From: Deefgea tanakiae
GTDB taxonomy: Bacteria > Pseudomonadota > Gammaproteobacteria > Burkholderiales > Chitinibacteraceae
Length of the DNA: 64,000 nt
NCBI RefSeq assembly: GCF_019665765.1
Contig: NZ_CP081150.1
Coordinates: forward strand, 2,108,001 to 2,172,000
Direction of reading: 5' to 3'
Positions 4,513-43,723 of the stretch are shown here, piece after piece (position 1 is the stretch's first letter; the number at the start of each line of letters is the position of its first letter). Under the pieces are notes generated by a model. The model searched no databases and was not told the origin of the DNA. It worked only from the letters and a program-made list of their open reading frames with translations. The translations under genes were made by a program, and so were the position numbers.

Positions 4513-5868
4513 TTAGGCCTCGGAAGTCTTCACAGTACTCTTGGCCGACGCAGGCTTGCGATGACGGCTACGCTTGCGGCGTTTGGCAGGTACATCGCCG
4601 CCTTGGCCACTTTTAGCGGCCGCATCGATCATGTCCATGCGTTCAGTGCTTTCGCTGATTTGAAATTTCGTCCACCAATCGGCTAGCTCTTGCTCAACCA
4701 AACCGCATTCAGCACGCAGCAAAAGAAAATCATAGGCGGCACGGAAACGGGGTTGTTCAAACAAGCGGAACGGGCGCAAACCCACACGCTGTTCGAAACG
4801 CGGTTGCATCGCCCAGATTTCTTTCATCGCCGCACCATAGCGGTTTGGAATCGCCAAACGTTTACACACTTTGCTTTCCACTTCATTCATCGCTTCTATC
4901 AGCGCAGGGGTTTTCACTTCACCTGCAGCGATGCGTTTGTGCCAATTTTCTTCCACTTCATGCCACAGCAAAGCTGCAAACAAAAAACCAGCCGAAACAG
5001 GTTTGTCTTCAGCTAAACGATTGTCGGTGTTTTCTAACGCTTTTTGCAGAAACTTGGCGGTGTCAGGCTTAGACAGCAATTTATCCAGCAAGGGAAACAG
5101 CGGTTTATGCAAACTTAATTCACGCAAAGTCTGCACACAAAGCCAGGCCTTACCAGACAGCAGCAGCTTCATCATTTCATCAAACAAACGCGCCGTCGGG
5201 ATGTTTTCGAGCAGGGCCGCATGTTCACGAATTGGATTTTTAGTATCTGGCGCAATCGCTAAATCGAGCTTAGCCGACAAACGCGCCGCGCGCAGCATGC
5301 GCACAGGGTCTTCGTGATAGCGTTTAACCGGATCGCCAATCATCACCAACTGCTGTTTTTCTAAGTCTTCAATGCCGTGATGAAAATCGATAATTTCTTC
5401 TGAATTCGGATCGTAATACAGCGCATTCACAGTGAAATCTCGGCGATCGGCATCCTCAGCAATCGTGCCGTAGACGTTATCGCGAATAATTCGCCCAGAT
5501 GCATCGGTCGGTGATTCAGCGCTGCCACGGAAGGTGGTCACTTCGATAATTTCTTCGCCACCGCGCTCGTAAAATGGCACATGCACAATGCGGAATCGAC
5601 GGCCAATAATGCGCGAGCGGTTAAAAATATGCCGAACTTGCTCAGGCGTTGCACTGGTGGCCACGTCGAAATCTTTTGGCTCTTTACCCAATAACAAATC
5701 GCGAATGGCACCACCCACGATATAGGCCTCGTAGCCTGCGGCTTGCAGACGATCACAGACTTTCAACGCGCCTGAATGCAGTTGATCACGGCGAATGCCA
5801 TAATGCTTGGCGTGAATCACGCGCTTGCCTGGGCGCCGTAGCACCTTGCCGATAAATTTACGAATCAT
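4513..5868 (-). CDS. pcnB: Poly(A) polymerase I
   Basis: 451 residues. PcnB adds 3' poly(A) tails to RNA, promoting decay. The class II nucleotidyltransferase head is clear: GGAIRDLLLG, then DFDVATSAT holding the DxD metal pair, RRFRIVHV, and the RRDFTVNALYYD motif. The C-terminus is rich in Lys/Arg (KRRKRSRHRKP), typical of PcnB and distinguishing it from CCA-adding enzymes. It is the first gene of the pcnB-folK-panBC set. The upstream 200 bp, shared with the divergent phzF-like gene, holds its promoter; no strong Shine-Dalgarno sequence is visible at the chosen ATG. Confidence 0.95.
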   Translation of the reverse strand: MIRKFIGKVLRRPGKRVIHAKHYGIRRDQLHSGALKVCDRLQAAGYEAYIVGGAIRDLLLGKEPKDFDVATSATPEQVRHIFNRSRIIGRRFRIVHVPFYERGGEEIIEVTTFRGSAESPTDASGRIIRDNVYGTIAEDADRRDFTVNALYYDPNSEEIIDFHHGIEDLEKQQLVMIGDPVKRYHEDPVRMLRAARLSAKLDLAIAPDTKNPIREHAALLENIPTARLFDEMMKLLLSGKAWLCVQTLRELSLHKPLFPLLDKLLSKPDTAKFLQKALENTDNRLAEDKPVSAGFLFAALLWHEVEENWHKRIAAGEVKTPALIEAMNEVESKVCKRLAIPNRYGAAMKEIWAMQPRFEQRVGLRPFRLFEQPRFRAAYDFLLLRAECGLVEQELADWWTKFQISESTERMDMIDAAAKSGQGGDVPAKRRKRSRHRKPASAKSTVKTSEA

Positions 5869-38935: not shown

Positions 38936-38957
38936 CCCCTCACGGAGTTTGTATCTT

Positions 38958-40334
38958 ATGTTTAAAAAAATTCTTATTGCCAACCGTGGTGAAATCGCAC
39001 TACGAATTTTGCGCGCTTGCCGCGAAATGGGCATCAAAACCGTCGTCGTGCATTCTGAAATCGACCGCGAAGCCAAATACGTCAAACTCGCTGATGAATC
39101 AGTGTGTATCGGCCCGAACCCTTCGGCACAAAGCTATTTGAATATGGCGGCATTGATTTCGGCTGCCGAAGTCACTGAAGCTGAAGCGATTCACCCTGGC
39201 TATGGCTTTTTGTCGGAAAACGCTGATTTTGCGCAGCGCGTAGAAGAATCAGGTTTCGTATTTATCGGCCCTCGCCCAGAAACGATTCGCCTCATGGGCG
39301 ACAAAGTGTCGGCTAAAGACGCGATGAAAGCCGCTGGCGTACCTTGCGTACCGGGTTCTGACGGCGCATTGCCAGATGATGGCGACGAAATGATCAAGAT
39401 TGGTCGTAAAGTCGGCTATCCAGTCATCATCAAAGCCGCTGGCGGTGGTGGTGGTCGTGGTATGCGCGTGGTTGAGCGTGAAGAAGACTTGCTTGCTGCC
39501 GTGGCCATGACACAAGCCGAAGCAGGTGCAGCGTTTGGCAATCCTGTGGTTTACATGGAACGCTATTTGCAAAATCCGCGTCACGTCGAAATCCAGATTC
39601 TCGCTGATCAACATGGTCACGCTATTTATTTAGGCGAGCGCGATTGCTCAATGCAACGTCGCCACCAAAAAGTACTCGAAGAAGCGCCAGCACCGGGTAT
39701 TACCGAAGAACAACGCCAACGCATTGGTGAATCTTGCGCTGAAGCGTGCCGCCGCATGGGTTATCGTGGTGCAGGTACGTTTGAATTCTTGTTCGAAAAC
39801 GGTGAGTTCTTCTTTATCGAGATGAACACCCGTGTGCAAGTTGAACATCCGGTGACCGAACTGATCACCGGTATCGACATCGTGCAAGAACAAATTCGCG
39901 TTGCTGCGAACTTGCCATTGCAATACACACAAGACGACGTGAAGCTCAAAGGCCATGCGATTGAGTGCCGAATTAATGCTGAAGATCCGCTGAATTTCTT
40001 CCCGAGCCCAGGCCGCATCACGACGTATCACACGCCAGGTGGCCCGGGTGTGCGTGTGGATTCGCATGTGTATCAAGGTTATTTTGTTCCACCAAACTAC
40101 GACAGCATGATCGGTAAAATCATCACTTACGGCGAAACCCGTGAGCAAGCGATTGCCAAAATGCGTATCGCCTTGTCAGAAATGGTCGTTCAAGGTATTT
40201 CAACGAATATCCCGCTGCATCAGCAGCTATTAGTTGATCCGGAATTCATCAAAGGTGAAACGAGCATTCATTATCTCGAACACCAAATGCCAGCGATTCG
40301 CGAATTGATTGCCCAAAAAACGGCAGCTCAATAA
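38958..40334 (+). CDS. accC: Biotin carboxylase subunit of acetyl-CoA carboxylase
   Basis: 458 residues from the ATG at 38958 (GGAG ten bases upstream; an in-frame TTG at 38949 is closer than allowed). ATP-grasp enzyme that carboxylates biotin on AccB. Visible: [33 protein letters not shown], the glycine loop [33 protein letters not shown], and the catalytic [13 protein letters not shown]. Full length. Ends the accBC unit with a terminator. Confidence 0.98.
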
Positions 40335-40366: not shown

Positions 40367-40466
40367 CATTCTAACTCCGTCAAAAATCGACACTAGTAAA
40401 AACCTTTTCGTCGAACGCAAGCAGTTCGTGGCAAAATACGCCCCTACAGAATTCAGGAATAGCATC

Positions 40467-41354
40467 ATGGCTTGGCAAGAACTCCGCCTAACGACCGACT
40501 CCAAACAGGCAGAAGCCTATTCGGACGCTTTATTTGACTTGGGCGCGCTTTCAGTTTCGATTGAAGACGCCGCCGCCGACACCGTGGATGAAAAGCCAAT
40601 TTTTGGTGAGCCGGGTGAGCCTGTCGACCAATTGTGGGATAACAGCATCGTATTGGCGCTATTTGATGTCGACATCGATGTCGATGCCATTGTCGCCACC
40701 GCAGCAGAAACGCTCAAATTGGCCGCACCAAGCTACGTAATCGTGAATGTCGCCGATCAAGATTGGGTGCGCTTGACCCAATCGCAATTCGATCCAATTC
40801 CAATTTCACCGCGCCTATGGATTACACCGACGTGGCACGAATGCCCAGATCCTGCCGCAGTCAGCATTCAGCTCGATCCTGGCTTGGCCTTTGGTACCGG
40901 CAGCCACCCGACAACGCGCTTGTGCTTGCAATGGCTCGATTCGAATATCGCTGGTGGCGAGAATGTGCTCGATTACGGCTGTGGTAGCGGGATTTTGGCG
41001 ATTGCCGCACTCAAACTCGGTGCAGGCGAAACCGATGGTGTCGATATTGATGCGCAAGCGATGATCGCCAGCAATCAAAATGCCGAGCAAAACGGTGTGG
41101 TCGGACAGTTCTACCTGCCCGATGCTGCGCCAAGCAAAACCTATGACCTCGTTGTGGCCAATATTCTGACCAATCCGCTCAAAGCACTCGCGCCTTTATT
41201 GGCTGCGCGTTGCCGCACTGGCGGCCGCTTGGTGCTGTCGGGTATTTTGGCCGAACAAGCGCATGAAATCGTCGCCATTTATAATGAATGGTTTGACTTT
41301 ACAGCCCCGGCCGAACATGAAGGTTGGGTGTGTTTATCGGCAGTTCGTAAATAA
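40467..41354 (+). CDS. prmA: Ribosomal protein L11 methyltransferase
   Basis: 295 residues from the ATG at 40467 (AGGA upstream); an in-frame earlier start at 40428 is rejected. SAM-dependent trimethylation of L11. N-terminal L11-binding domain (MAWQELRLTTDSKQAEAYSD), linker, and a class I methyltransferase domain with LDPGLAFGTGSHPTTRLCL, motif I VLDYGCGSGILAIAALKLG and VVANILTNPL. In many betaproteobacteria prmA follows accC as here. Confidence 0.97.
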   Translation: MAWQELRLTTDSKQAEAYSDALFDLGALSVSIEDAAADTVDEKPIFGEPGEPVDQLWDNSIVLALFDVDIDVDAIVATAAETLKLAAPSYVIVNVADQDWVRLTQSQFDPIPISPRLWITPTWHECPDPAAVSIQLDPGLAFGTGSHPTTRLCLQWLDSNIAGGENVLDYGCGSGILAIAALKLGAGETDGVDIDAQAMIASNQNAEQNGVVGQFYLPDAAPSKTYDLVVANILTNPLKALAPLLAARCRTGGRLVLSGILAEQAHEIVAIYNEWFDFTAPAEHEGWVCLSAVRK

Positions 41355-41430: not shown

Positions 41431-42447
41431 ATGAGCCAAATTACTTGCTGCCCCAATTGCAGCACCACCTTTCGTGTTACCGACGCACAGCTCGCCGCGC
41501 ACCAAGGCAAGGTGCGCTGTGGCCGCTGTGCATTTGTGTTTCATGCGCCCGATTTTATTCAATCACTGATTATCGAGCCCGCTGAGACTCGCACCGAAAG
41601 CCCTGCCCCCTCTACAATTGCACCAAGGCCTCCGGTTGAGCCAGAAATATCTAACGCGAAACAGCAACCGCAAGATACTGATCAAGGTATACAGCCAGAG
41701 CCAAATGAATTAAAGATCCACAACCAAATACATCAAGTTGAAGAACACAATTCATCCAACATTGATCATGAAAAATTATTAAAGCTCGCCGATGAAGAGC
41801 TAGAACTCGACGTTGCACTCAGCAAGAACCAAGCGCTACTTGATGCCCAAGCGACAGCTGAAGACGAAACGACAAAAATACCCGAACGGGCAGTCATTGA
41901 AATTGATAGCGAATCAGAATACCAACCAATTCTCACTGACGACGATTTATTTGCACCAGCCAAGCCCAAATCTCGTTTTACTTGGGTCTGGATTCTGGGT
42001 TCAATGCTGGCGACCATCGTTTTAGTCGCACAGCTTATTTATGTGTTTCGCAATGAGTTAAGCCAAGAATTTCCAGCGCTACGCCCTAAGCTCATTGTTT
42101 TGTGTGAGCACCTCAATTGCAGCCTGCCTTTGCCGCGCGAAGCGCAATTGCTGCGCTCTGAATACTCAGAACTCACTTTCATTCCGAACAGCCCAACGTT
42201 GATTCAACTGAATGCAACGCTCAGAAACTTGGCACCATTCGAGCAAGAGCTCCCAAAACTCGAAGTCACGCTAACCGATGAAAACGAAAAAGTCATCGTG
42301 CGAAAGATTTTTACTGCGAAGCAATACATGATGCAAAACGAGCGCGCGCAAAACTCAATCGAAGCCAACGAAGAAATCCGCGCCTTTTTGCAACTGGATT
42401 TGGGTGAGCTGCACTCAACAGGCTACTCGCTGTATTGGTTCTACTAA
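41431..42447 (+). CDS. DUF3426 protein with MJ0042 zinc ribbon
   Basis: 338 residues. The N-terminus MSQITCCPNCSTTFRVTDAQ continues to VRCGRCAFVFHA, a two-CxxC zinc ribbon of the MJ0042 type. A long acidic, low-complexity linker (about 50-175) precedes one TM helix (WVWILGSMLATIVLVAQLIY) and a periplasmic DUF3426 domain that contains LNCSLPLPR and LRNLAPFEQELPKLEVTLTD. The function is unknown; next to prmA it is a conserved betaproteobacterial neighbour. RBS is weak. Confidence 0.9.
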   Translation: MSQITCCPNCSTTFRVTDAQLAAHQGKVRCGRCAFVFHAPDFIQSLIIEPAETRTESPAPSTIAPRPPVEPEISNAKQQPQDTDQGIQPEPNELKIHNQIHQVEEHNSSNIDHEKLLKLADEELELDVALSKNQALLDAQATAEDETTKIPERAVIEIDSESEYQPILTDDDLFAPAKPKSRFTWVWILGSMLATIVLVAQLIYVFRNELSQEFPALRPKLIVLCEHLNCSLPLPREAQLLRSEYSELTFIPNSPTLIQLNATLRNLAPFEQELPKLEVTLTDENEKVIVRKIFTAKQYMMQNERAQNSIEANEEIRAFLQLDLGELHSTGYSLYWFY

Positions 42448-42511
42448 GCCAACTTGTTTTTCAGGCATTTCCAGCCATACTGAAAAGATTCGATTTTCAG
42501 GAGTTTTTAGT

Positions 42512-43057
42512 ATGTCTACAGTCATGCTCAACAGCACCCCGATTAGTATTGGCGGTCGCTTCCCACGCGCAGGGGAAACTGCGCATAGTTTTATGCTGGT
42601 TGACTTACAATTGCAAGACGTTGCGCTTTCCAAATTTTGGGGACAACGCAAACTCATCGCGGTAGTGCCTAGCCTTGATGCAGCGATTGGACTGACGATT
42701 GCCAGAAAACTAGAATCTCTTGGCTATGAGCTGGATAACGTTGTCATCATGACCGTATCAGTCGATACACCATACGCGCTTTCTCGAATCAACGACGCCG
42801 AAGGTTTTCGAAAAATACAGCTGATGTCCACATTGCGTGGCCGTGATTTTCATAAAGATTATGGTGTCATGATTACTGATGTGCCGCTTTCTGGCTTGAT
42901 GACGACCGCTTTATTTGTACTCGATACCGACGATACCGTGCTGTATTCGGAACTGGTCAGTGATTTGAATTCAGAACCTAGCTATCAATCGGCAATAGAA
43001 AAACTTGCGCCACCGATTATTCACAAGGCTGAGCCCGAAGCACCAAGTAATGAATAA
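42512..43057 (+). CDS. Cysteine-free thiol peroxidase paralogue
   Basis: 181 residues from the ATG at 42512 (CAGGAG eight bases upstream). It aligns without gaps over ~165 residues with the Tpx encoded next to it: GGRFPRAGETAHSFMLVD, PSLDAAIG for [26 protein letters not shown] for [38 protein letters not shown]. The peroxidatic Cys60 is Gly and the resolving Cys94 is Asn; the protein has no cysteine at all. It cannot work as a peroxidase by the known mechanism. A 15-residue charged tail is added. Conservation of the fold with RBS and terminator suggests a kept gene, perhaps a Tpx partner or sensor; this is inference. Confidence 0.85.
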   Translation: MSTVMLNSTPISIGGRFPRAGETAHSFMLVDLQLQDVALSKFWGQRKLIAVVPSLDAAIGLTIARKLESLGYELDNVVIMTVSVDTPYALSRINDAEGFRKIQLMSTLRGRDFHKDYGVMITDVPLSGLMTTALFVLDTDDTVLYSELVSDLNSEPSYQSAIEKLAPPIIHKAEPEAPSNE

Positions 43058-43067
43058 AATACAACTT

Positions 43068-43090
43068 AAAGGCCGCAAGGCCTTTTATTT
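43068..43090 (+). terminator. Terminator of the Tpx paralogue
   Basis: AAAGGCC/GGCCTTT stem with loop GCAA followed by T-rich sequence; separates the paralogue from tpx. Confidence 0.85.
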
Positions 43091-43222
43091 TAGTCTCCGC
43101 AAACCTATTTTTTTTGAGATTGCAAGCCCTGTTAAATTCTCAATACAGCTCTTTTGTTTTATCTAAGCAGCCCCACTTAATCCAATGGAAGTCTTAAAAA
43201 TAACACTTACTGGAGCAAATAC

Positions 43223-43723
43223 ATGACAGCAGTTACTCTCGGCGGCAATCCAGTCGCAATCAACGGCACTTTCCCTAGCGTTGGCACCACAGCACCTGCA
43301 TTTAGCTTGGTGGCAAAAGATTTATCTGACGTAACGTTGGCAAGTTTGGCTGGCAAACGCAAAGTATTGAACATTTTCCCAAGTGTAGATACGCCAACTT
43401 GTGCGACTTCAGTTCGTCGCTTCAATGAATCTGCAGCAGGTTTGAACAACACCGTTGTGGTATGCATTTCTGCTGATTTGCCATTCGCACAAGCACGTTT
43501 CTGCGGCGCAGAAGGCATTGAAAATGTCATCAATCTATCAACCATGCGTGGTCGTGAATTCTTGGCGAATTATGGCGTTGAAATCACTAGCGCACCTTTG
43601 GCTGGCGTTGCAGCACGTGCAGTTGTGGTACTCGATGAAAACGACCAAGTTTTGCACTCTGAATTGGTTGCTGAAATCAAAGATGAGCCAAACTACGAAG
43701 CAGCACTGAAAGTTTTAGCCTAA
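43223..43723 (+). CDS. tpx: Thiol peroxidase (atypical 2-Cys peroxiredoxin)
   Basis: 166 residues, full length. Reduces hydroperoxides with thioredoxin. Peroxidatic Cys60 in [18 protein letters not shown] and resolving Cys94 in ARFCGAEGI are both present. Shine-Dalgarno ACTGGAGC before the ATG. The upstream neighbour is a Cys-free paralogue in the same direction, but a terminator lies between, so they probably have separate promoters. Confidence 0.97.

Follow-up and report, generated by a model that had tools for sequence, protein, structure and literature searches.

Peroxiredoxins are defined by cysteine, and Pro53, Thr57, Cys60, and Arg132 have catalytic roles in these proteins. The closest described relatives of the protein analyzed here are the thiol peroxidases (Tpx), which are represented by NCBIfam model NF001808 and PDB entries 1qxh, 3hvv, 2xpd, and 2yjh. 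Tpx proteins resemble our protein in that the whole domain can be aligned and the interface residues are shared, but they have a peroxidatic Cys60, a resolving Cys94, Arg132, and Thr57 (the last was found in only 2 of 46 orthologues of our protein).

According to the Yersinia Tpx report (PMC3288085), the protein is solely a dimer in solution, R110 at the dimer interface forms hydrogen bonds to G125, P126, and A128, D57-R93 salt bridges are present in the oxidized state, and the substrate cleft is speculated to accommodate fatty acid hydroperoxides. Complexes of two unlike peroxiredoxins occur in eukaryotes; these are Prx1/AhpC-type heterodimers and heterodecamers, and a Cys-free Tpx partner does not appear in the abstract that describes them (PMC13038412). 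No Cys-free Tpx was named in the titles and abstract openings returned by our searches of an open-access literature library. Here, we describe a protein that, to judge from sequence comparisons, is almost certainly an old and conserved pseudoenzyme of the Tpx subfamily. A conserved protein of this kind is a natural experiment on the peroxiredoxin fold without the chemistry.

A Tpx paralogue without cysteines is encoded upstream of tpx

The window, a 64,000-nucleotide stretch of the Deefgea tanakiae genome (contig NZ_CP081150.1, positions 2,108,001 to 2,172,000), encodes a 181-residue protein at 42512 to 43057 (+) that we refer to as CF, for cysteine-free Tpx paralogue (or pseudo-Tpx). As read from the sequence, an AGGAG at 42499 to 42503 (+) is the likely Shine-Dalgarno element, with the ATG 8 bases on. 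An ordinary atypical 2-Cys thiol peroxidase gene, tpx, is located downstream at 43223 to 43723 (+); its 166-residue product has Thr57, Arg132, and three cysteines (Cys60, Cys81, and Cys94). Between the CF stop codon and tpx is a terminator-like hairpin with 7 pairs, a loop of 4, and a T-rich tail (43068 to 43085, +). Directly upstream of CF, with 64 bases between, is a gene for a zinc-ribbon and DUF3426 protein (41431 to 42447, +). Further upstream are prmA, which encodes the ribosomal protein L11 methyltransferase (40428 to 41354, +), and an open reading frame (38949 to 40334, +) that we take from its sequence to be an accC-like biotin carboxylase gene. The order of the accC-like frame followed by prmA was also found in many relatives.

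In a BLASTP comparison, CF and the Tpx of the window were 41% identical over 166 aligned residues with no gaps (E = 6e-45). The CF translation contained no cysteines, and Gly60, Ala57, Asn94, and Thr132 were found at the positions of the Tpx residues. These results agreed with the preliminary description, which had reported a gap-free alignment of the upstream protein with Tpx, glycine and asparagine in place of Cys60 and Cys94, and an intact frame with a Shine-Dalgarno element. A search with CF of the 3.56-Mb single-contig genome returned CF itself and the Tpx of the window, and no third match at E values up to 0.1. The closest named relatives of CF were from Deefgea, including a D. chitinilytica protein with 93% identity.

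Pfam Redoxin matched CF at 47.3 bits (cut-off, 26.6), and the NF001808 "thiol peroxidase" model scored CF at 154.2 bits and the Tpx of the window at 248.7 bits (cut-off, 123). Because both models accept CF, automatic annotation would probably call it an enzyme, and counts of antioxidant enzymes in CF-bearing genomes would run one too high.

CF orthologues lack the catalytic residue set of Tpx

After removal of duplicates, our comparison set consisted of 46 distinct CF sequences (169 to 193 residues) and 90 distinct Tpx sequences. All 90 Tpx had Pro53, Thr57, Cys60, and Arg132, and 89 had Cys94. In CF, position 60 was Gly in 46/46 sequences, position 94 was never Cys, position 132 was Thr in 45 and Ser in 1 (Arg in none), and position 57 was Ala in 39, Ser in 5, and Thr in 2; Pro53 was retained in all 46. 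The whole Tpx domain was aligned. Thus, CF is redox-dead as judged by its residues, with both cysteines and Arg132 gone from every orthologue and Thr57 gone from 44 of the 46, and the earlier characterization of CF as a redox-dead peroxiredoxin relative was upheld at this level. The accompanying statement that no cysteine remained anywhere held for the window CF and for 34/46 orthologues; the remaining 12 had one to three cysteines, none of which was at position 60 or 94. Two side observations concerned position 94 of active proteins: the Tpx encoded at 539 to 1033 of locus L077 had Cys60 and Arg94, the sole such case among the 90 Tpx, and the Tpx of locus L231 had Thr at this position.

Gly60 was written as GGC in 35 CF genes, GGT in 6, GGG in 4, and GGA in 1. 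The use of all four GGN codons indicated that the amino acid was held while the codon moved. Selenocysteine at position 60 was ruled out, as the codon was GGA in the window and GGN in 46/46 genes and there was no in-frame TGA. A sequencing artefact was ruled out by the 46 distinct sequences and their GGN codons.

We defined CF-specific positions as those at which at least 95% of CF sequences shared a residue other than the commonest one of Tpx. There were 12 such positions (7, 50, 60, 61, 63, 67, 84, 86, 88, 108, 130, and 132), and 9 of these (all but 7, 108, and 130) are predicted to lie at or near active-site segments. The stretch HKDYGVMIT was ruled out as a new CF motif, since it is common to many active Tpx, although the frequency of such Tpx in our set was inflated because they were retrieved in part with a pattern that included FHKDYGVM.

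CF is found in three families and is under purifying selection

Both CF and Tpx were found in 7/7 genomes of the genus of the window. In the family of the window (f1), 36/43 genomes had both genes (in six of these, the presence of CF was judged from score and identity alone), and 7/43, all from genera g10 and g11, had Tpx only. A scan of named genomes yielded 67 loci, which comprised 30 CF orthologues, 36 Tpx with Cys60, and 1 gene cut by a contig end. The CF-bearing genera were Deefgea, Chitinibacter, Chitinilyticum, Formivibrio, Andreprevotia, Chitiniphilus, Chitinolyticbacter, Amantichitinum, Chitinimonas, Parachitinimonas, and Iodobacter, together with some MAGs. When a sample of 399 genomes from the order was searched, CF was also found in families f20 and f31, and the 46 orthologues therefore span three families of one order. 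There may be further CF members in other families; we read 20 weaker matches, drawn from 16 families elsewhere in the order, and every one was a Tpx with Cys60, Thr57, and Arg132. A DNA pattern for RGRDFHK was matched in 1/370 genomes, that of the window, and a backward control in 3. Just 5 of these genomes belonged to the order, active Tpx can carry the stretch too, and the pattern would overlook diverged members, so the scan carries little weight on spread beyond the order.

In five of the seven g10 and g11 genomes, the gap in the place of CF was searched for CF remnants, and none was convincing (the best tblastn match had an E value of 0.001 and was on the opposite strand). In three g10 genomes, the gap between DUF3426 and tpx contained an open reading frame that we took by eye to be gcvH-like (glycine cleavage H protein). 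These frames are at 4519 to 5011 of L134 (G036), 5456 to 5948 of L135 (G038), and 5122 to 5615 of L141 (G037). Two genomes had a CF-type gene and no further Tpx-type gene above the family cut-off: G188 (family f31), a 680-contig assembly in which the absent tpx may be a gap, and G167 (family f50), whose CF-like protein is very diverged and has Ser60.

To quantify selection, we used codon model GY+F3X4 with groups of named species and their close MAG or other kin. The omega values for CF and for Tpx of the same genomes were 0.077 and 0.062 in the Deefgea group (n = 7), 0.049 and 0.060 in the Chitinibacter group (n = 6), 0.072 and 0.052 in the Iodobacter group (n = 5), and 0.046 and 0.066 in the Chitinimonas group (n = 7). 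When omega was fixed at 1, the CF log-likelihood was worse by 146 to 353 units. The low omega values and the poor fit at omega = 1 indicated that purifying selection on CF was about as strong as that on Tpx, and no premature stop was found among the 46 distinct CF sequences. The dN/dS comparison that had been proposed thus placed CF far below 1, like Tpx, and together with the intact frames and the 46 orthologues it bore out the suggestion that the gene was maintained and not decaying.

A solved structure and two further families have CF-type proteins

PDB entry 3keb, a 224-residue "probable thiol peroxidase" with four chains, matched Iodobacter CF (E = 3e-31) and the window CF (E = 3.4e-26). 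We take its organism to be Chromobacterium violaceum. In the Iodobacter CF search, 3keb ranked third, above entries that are presumably E. coli Tpx. Residues 15 to 171 of 3keb were 41% identical to the window CF; like CF, this stretch had Gly60, no cysteine, and a shared STLRGRDFHK sequence. Unlike CF, 3keb had Leu53, an active-site loop extended by two residues, and a longer chain. When residues 15 to 171 were used as the query in the order sample, close relatives turned up in families f26 (12 genomes) and f50 (2 genomes). The f26 proteins had Gly60, Arg94, and Pro132 in 12/12 cases, and Pro132 was also present in 3keb.

The two f50 proteins (L214, 6553 to 7113; L215, near 7000) were very diverged, with Ser60, Pro132, and Glu56. 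No DUF3426 match was found within 1.5 kb of either gene, and neighboring frames were named by eye, presumably as methionine aminopeptidase-like and gpsA-like genes. All 16 Tpx retrieved from f26 and f50 genomes had Cys60. The f26 and f50 CF-type proteins scored under the NF001808 cut-off, and this equivalog model passed all three f1 and f31 CF proteins that were scored (those of the window, G024, and G188), which are without a catalytic cysteine. Hence, both a curated "thiol peroxidase" model and a solved structure label CF-type proteins as enzymes, a naming error that our comparison exposed.

CF formed one clade (100/100), both without and with the f26 and f50 rows. In the 68-row tree, a branch with 100/100 support set CF and the f26 and f50 proteins apart from the other rows, as would be expected if the cysteine was lost only once. 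In the same tree, which was unrooted and had long branches, CF grouped (99/91) with the one Tpx that f12 genomes encode, a Cys-containing protein, and the active Tpx from genomes with CF made up a separate group. A tandem duplication inside the group was weakly disfavored (p-AU = 0.041; lnL difference of 12.4 when CF and Tpx of the same genomes were forced together).

The f12 Tpx (L130 to L132) resembled CF in that its gene was in the same place, between DUF3426 and DUF3025, and in that it had the KDYGVMITDVPLSGLM stretch, as seen in L131. It differed from CF in having Cys60, Cys94, Thr57, and Arg132, and it is by these residues an ordinary enzyme. At six f12 loci (L130 to L132 and L143 to L145), DUF3426 and DUF3025 flanked a lone Cys-containing tpx gene. 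The f12 arrangement is likely to be the ancestral state of the CF place. It is a fair but uncertain proposal that the cysteine of the resident gene was dropped after a second active Tpx had become available.

CF is linked to prmA-DUF3426 and more loosely to tpx

A DUF3426 gene was found upstream of CF, on the same strand, at 44/46 distinct loci. The exceptions were Formivibrio citricus (L045/L140), in which CF had moved, and L117, in which only the zinc-ribbon part of DUF3426 was matched. In a Formivibrio genome, 52 kb separated CF from tpx. The tpx gene followed CF at 44/46 loci (families f1, f20, and f31) with a gap of 16 to 451 bases. Terminator-like hairpins were present in 28/44 of these gaps, versus about 1 expected from letter shuffles. 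On the window alone, the case for the 43068 to 43085 hairpin as a terminator was weak, as a scan of both strands found 3 sites versus a shuffle mean of 1.7.

At the f26 loci, CF followed prmA/DUF3426 in 12/12 cases (prmA itself was matched in 11), and no tpx was found within 1.5 kb on either side of CF at any of the 12. In 3 f26 genomes, each a single contig, tpx was more than 1 Mb from CF; for the remaining 9, the assemblies show only that tpx is on a different contig. The preliminary description had envisioned a redox-dead protein kept beside the active enzyme, with an intact terminator, and had proposed a search for co-occurring homologues. Our results agreed with this picture in that 46 orthologues were found, 44 of them adjacent to tpx, and in that a hairpin does follow the CF stop codon. 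Other parts had to be revised: the hairpin stands between CF and tpx and so sets the two genes apart, and CF is less closely bound to tpx than was first supposed, given its place behind DUF3426 at 44/46 loci, the 28/44 gaps with hairpins, and the f26 CF genes without a nearby tpx.

A proposed binding role for CF, largely apart from Tpx

The reading that we favor, with moderate confidence and on the strength of sequence data, is that CF is a non-catalytic, dimeric Tpx-fold protein for binding or regulation that acts largely apart from Tpx. The narrower claim, that the role of CF is one of binding and is Tpx-independent, we hold at slightly better than even. CF would adopt a Tpx-like dimeric fold that is inert to peroxide and in which the active-site helix no longer unfolds with the redox state. 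Its target would be a partner protein or else a small hydrophobic ligand, the latter bound in the former substrate cleft close to where the subunits meet, and CF could serve as a scaffold or a ligand-sensing adaptor. Expression of CF is probably tied to the prmA-DUF3426 block upstream of it and separate from that of tpx, which would point to a role that is largely independent of Tpx. The linkage to prmA-DUF3426 need not reflect function, however, because f12 has a normal Cys-containing Tpx at that place.

In the main rival reading, CF serves the neighboring Tpx as a dedicated heterodimer partner or regulatory subunit; the dead subunit would pair via the shared interface and tune stability, half-site reactivity, or substrate choice. 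Yersinia D57, R93, R110, and P126 correspond to positions 56, 92, 109, and 125 in CF numbering, and D56, R92, R109, and P125 were invariant in 46/46 CF, 12/12 f26 proteins, and 90/90 Tpx. The retention of these residues suggests that CF is likely dimeric, with itself or with Tpx; since the polar interface residues are identical in the two proteins and equally invariant in Tpx, a heterodimer fits as well. Also in favor of this rival are the adjacency of the two genes at 44/46 distinct loci, the presence of Tpx in most CF genomes, and the hetero-oligomers of unlike peroxiredoxins described in eukaryotes (abstract of PMC13038412). The partial distance correlation between CF and Tpx given PrmA was 0.27 across 26 loci (permutation P = 0.003), but that between CF and DUF3426 was 0.28, and these near-equal values favored neither partner. 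An obligate partnership with Tpx is made less likely by the f26 genomes, in which CF persists with tpx elsewhere (12/12), and by G188 and G167. The hairpins in the gaps and the 7/43 family genomes with Tpx and no CF also argue against it. We consider a dedicated Tpx partner possible but unlikely.

A constitutive, peroxide-independent chaperone of the holdase type is a more doubtful role for CF, and we regard it as improbable. Some peroxiredoxins turn from peroxidase into chaperone under stress, according to PMC7435893, and CF is without the residues of a peroxidase. The chaperone form in that account is a high-molecular-weight oligomer, however, whereas Yersinia Tpx is reported to be solely a dimer (PMC3288085), and we saw no sign of CF oligomers.

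About equally improbable is a specific version of the binding role, in which a peroxide-reducing enzyme has become a redox-inert ligand sensor. The former Tpx substrate cleft would hold an acyl ligand with no reaction taking place, and CF would signal its presence to the accC-prmA-DUF3426 block. If true, this would tie lipid state to that operon. For one member of the group, 3keb, a structure deposited under an enzyme name is publicly available.

It is very unlikely that the old pocket of CF retains a non-peroxidase catalysis in which other residues stand in for Cys60. The predicted location of 9/12 CF-specific positions at or near active-site segments is compatible with this idea, but at most CF-specific positions the new residue is small or apolar, and most of the positions differ again in f26. 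Furthermore, the conserved HKD stretch at 114 to 116 is common to many active Tpx and is thus inherited, not new.

Finally, we rejected a decaying tpx duplicate or pseudogene: although the catalytic residues are lost and 7/43 family genomes have no CF, the frames are unbroken in all 46 distinct sequences, omega is like that of Tpx and not near 1, Gly60 is fixed while its codons vary, and CF is retained in families f1, f20, f31, and f26.
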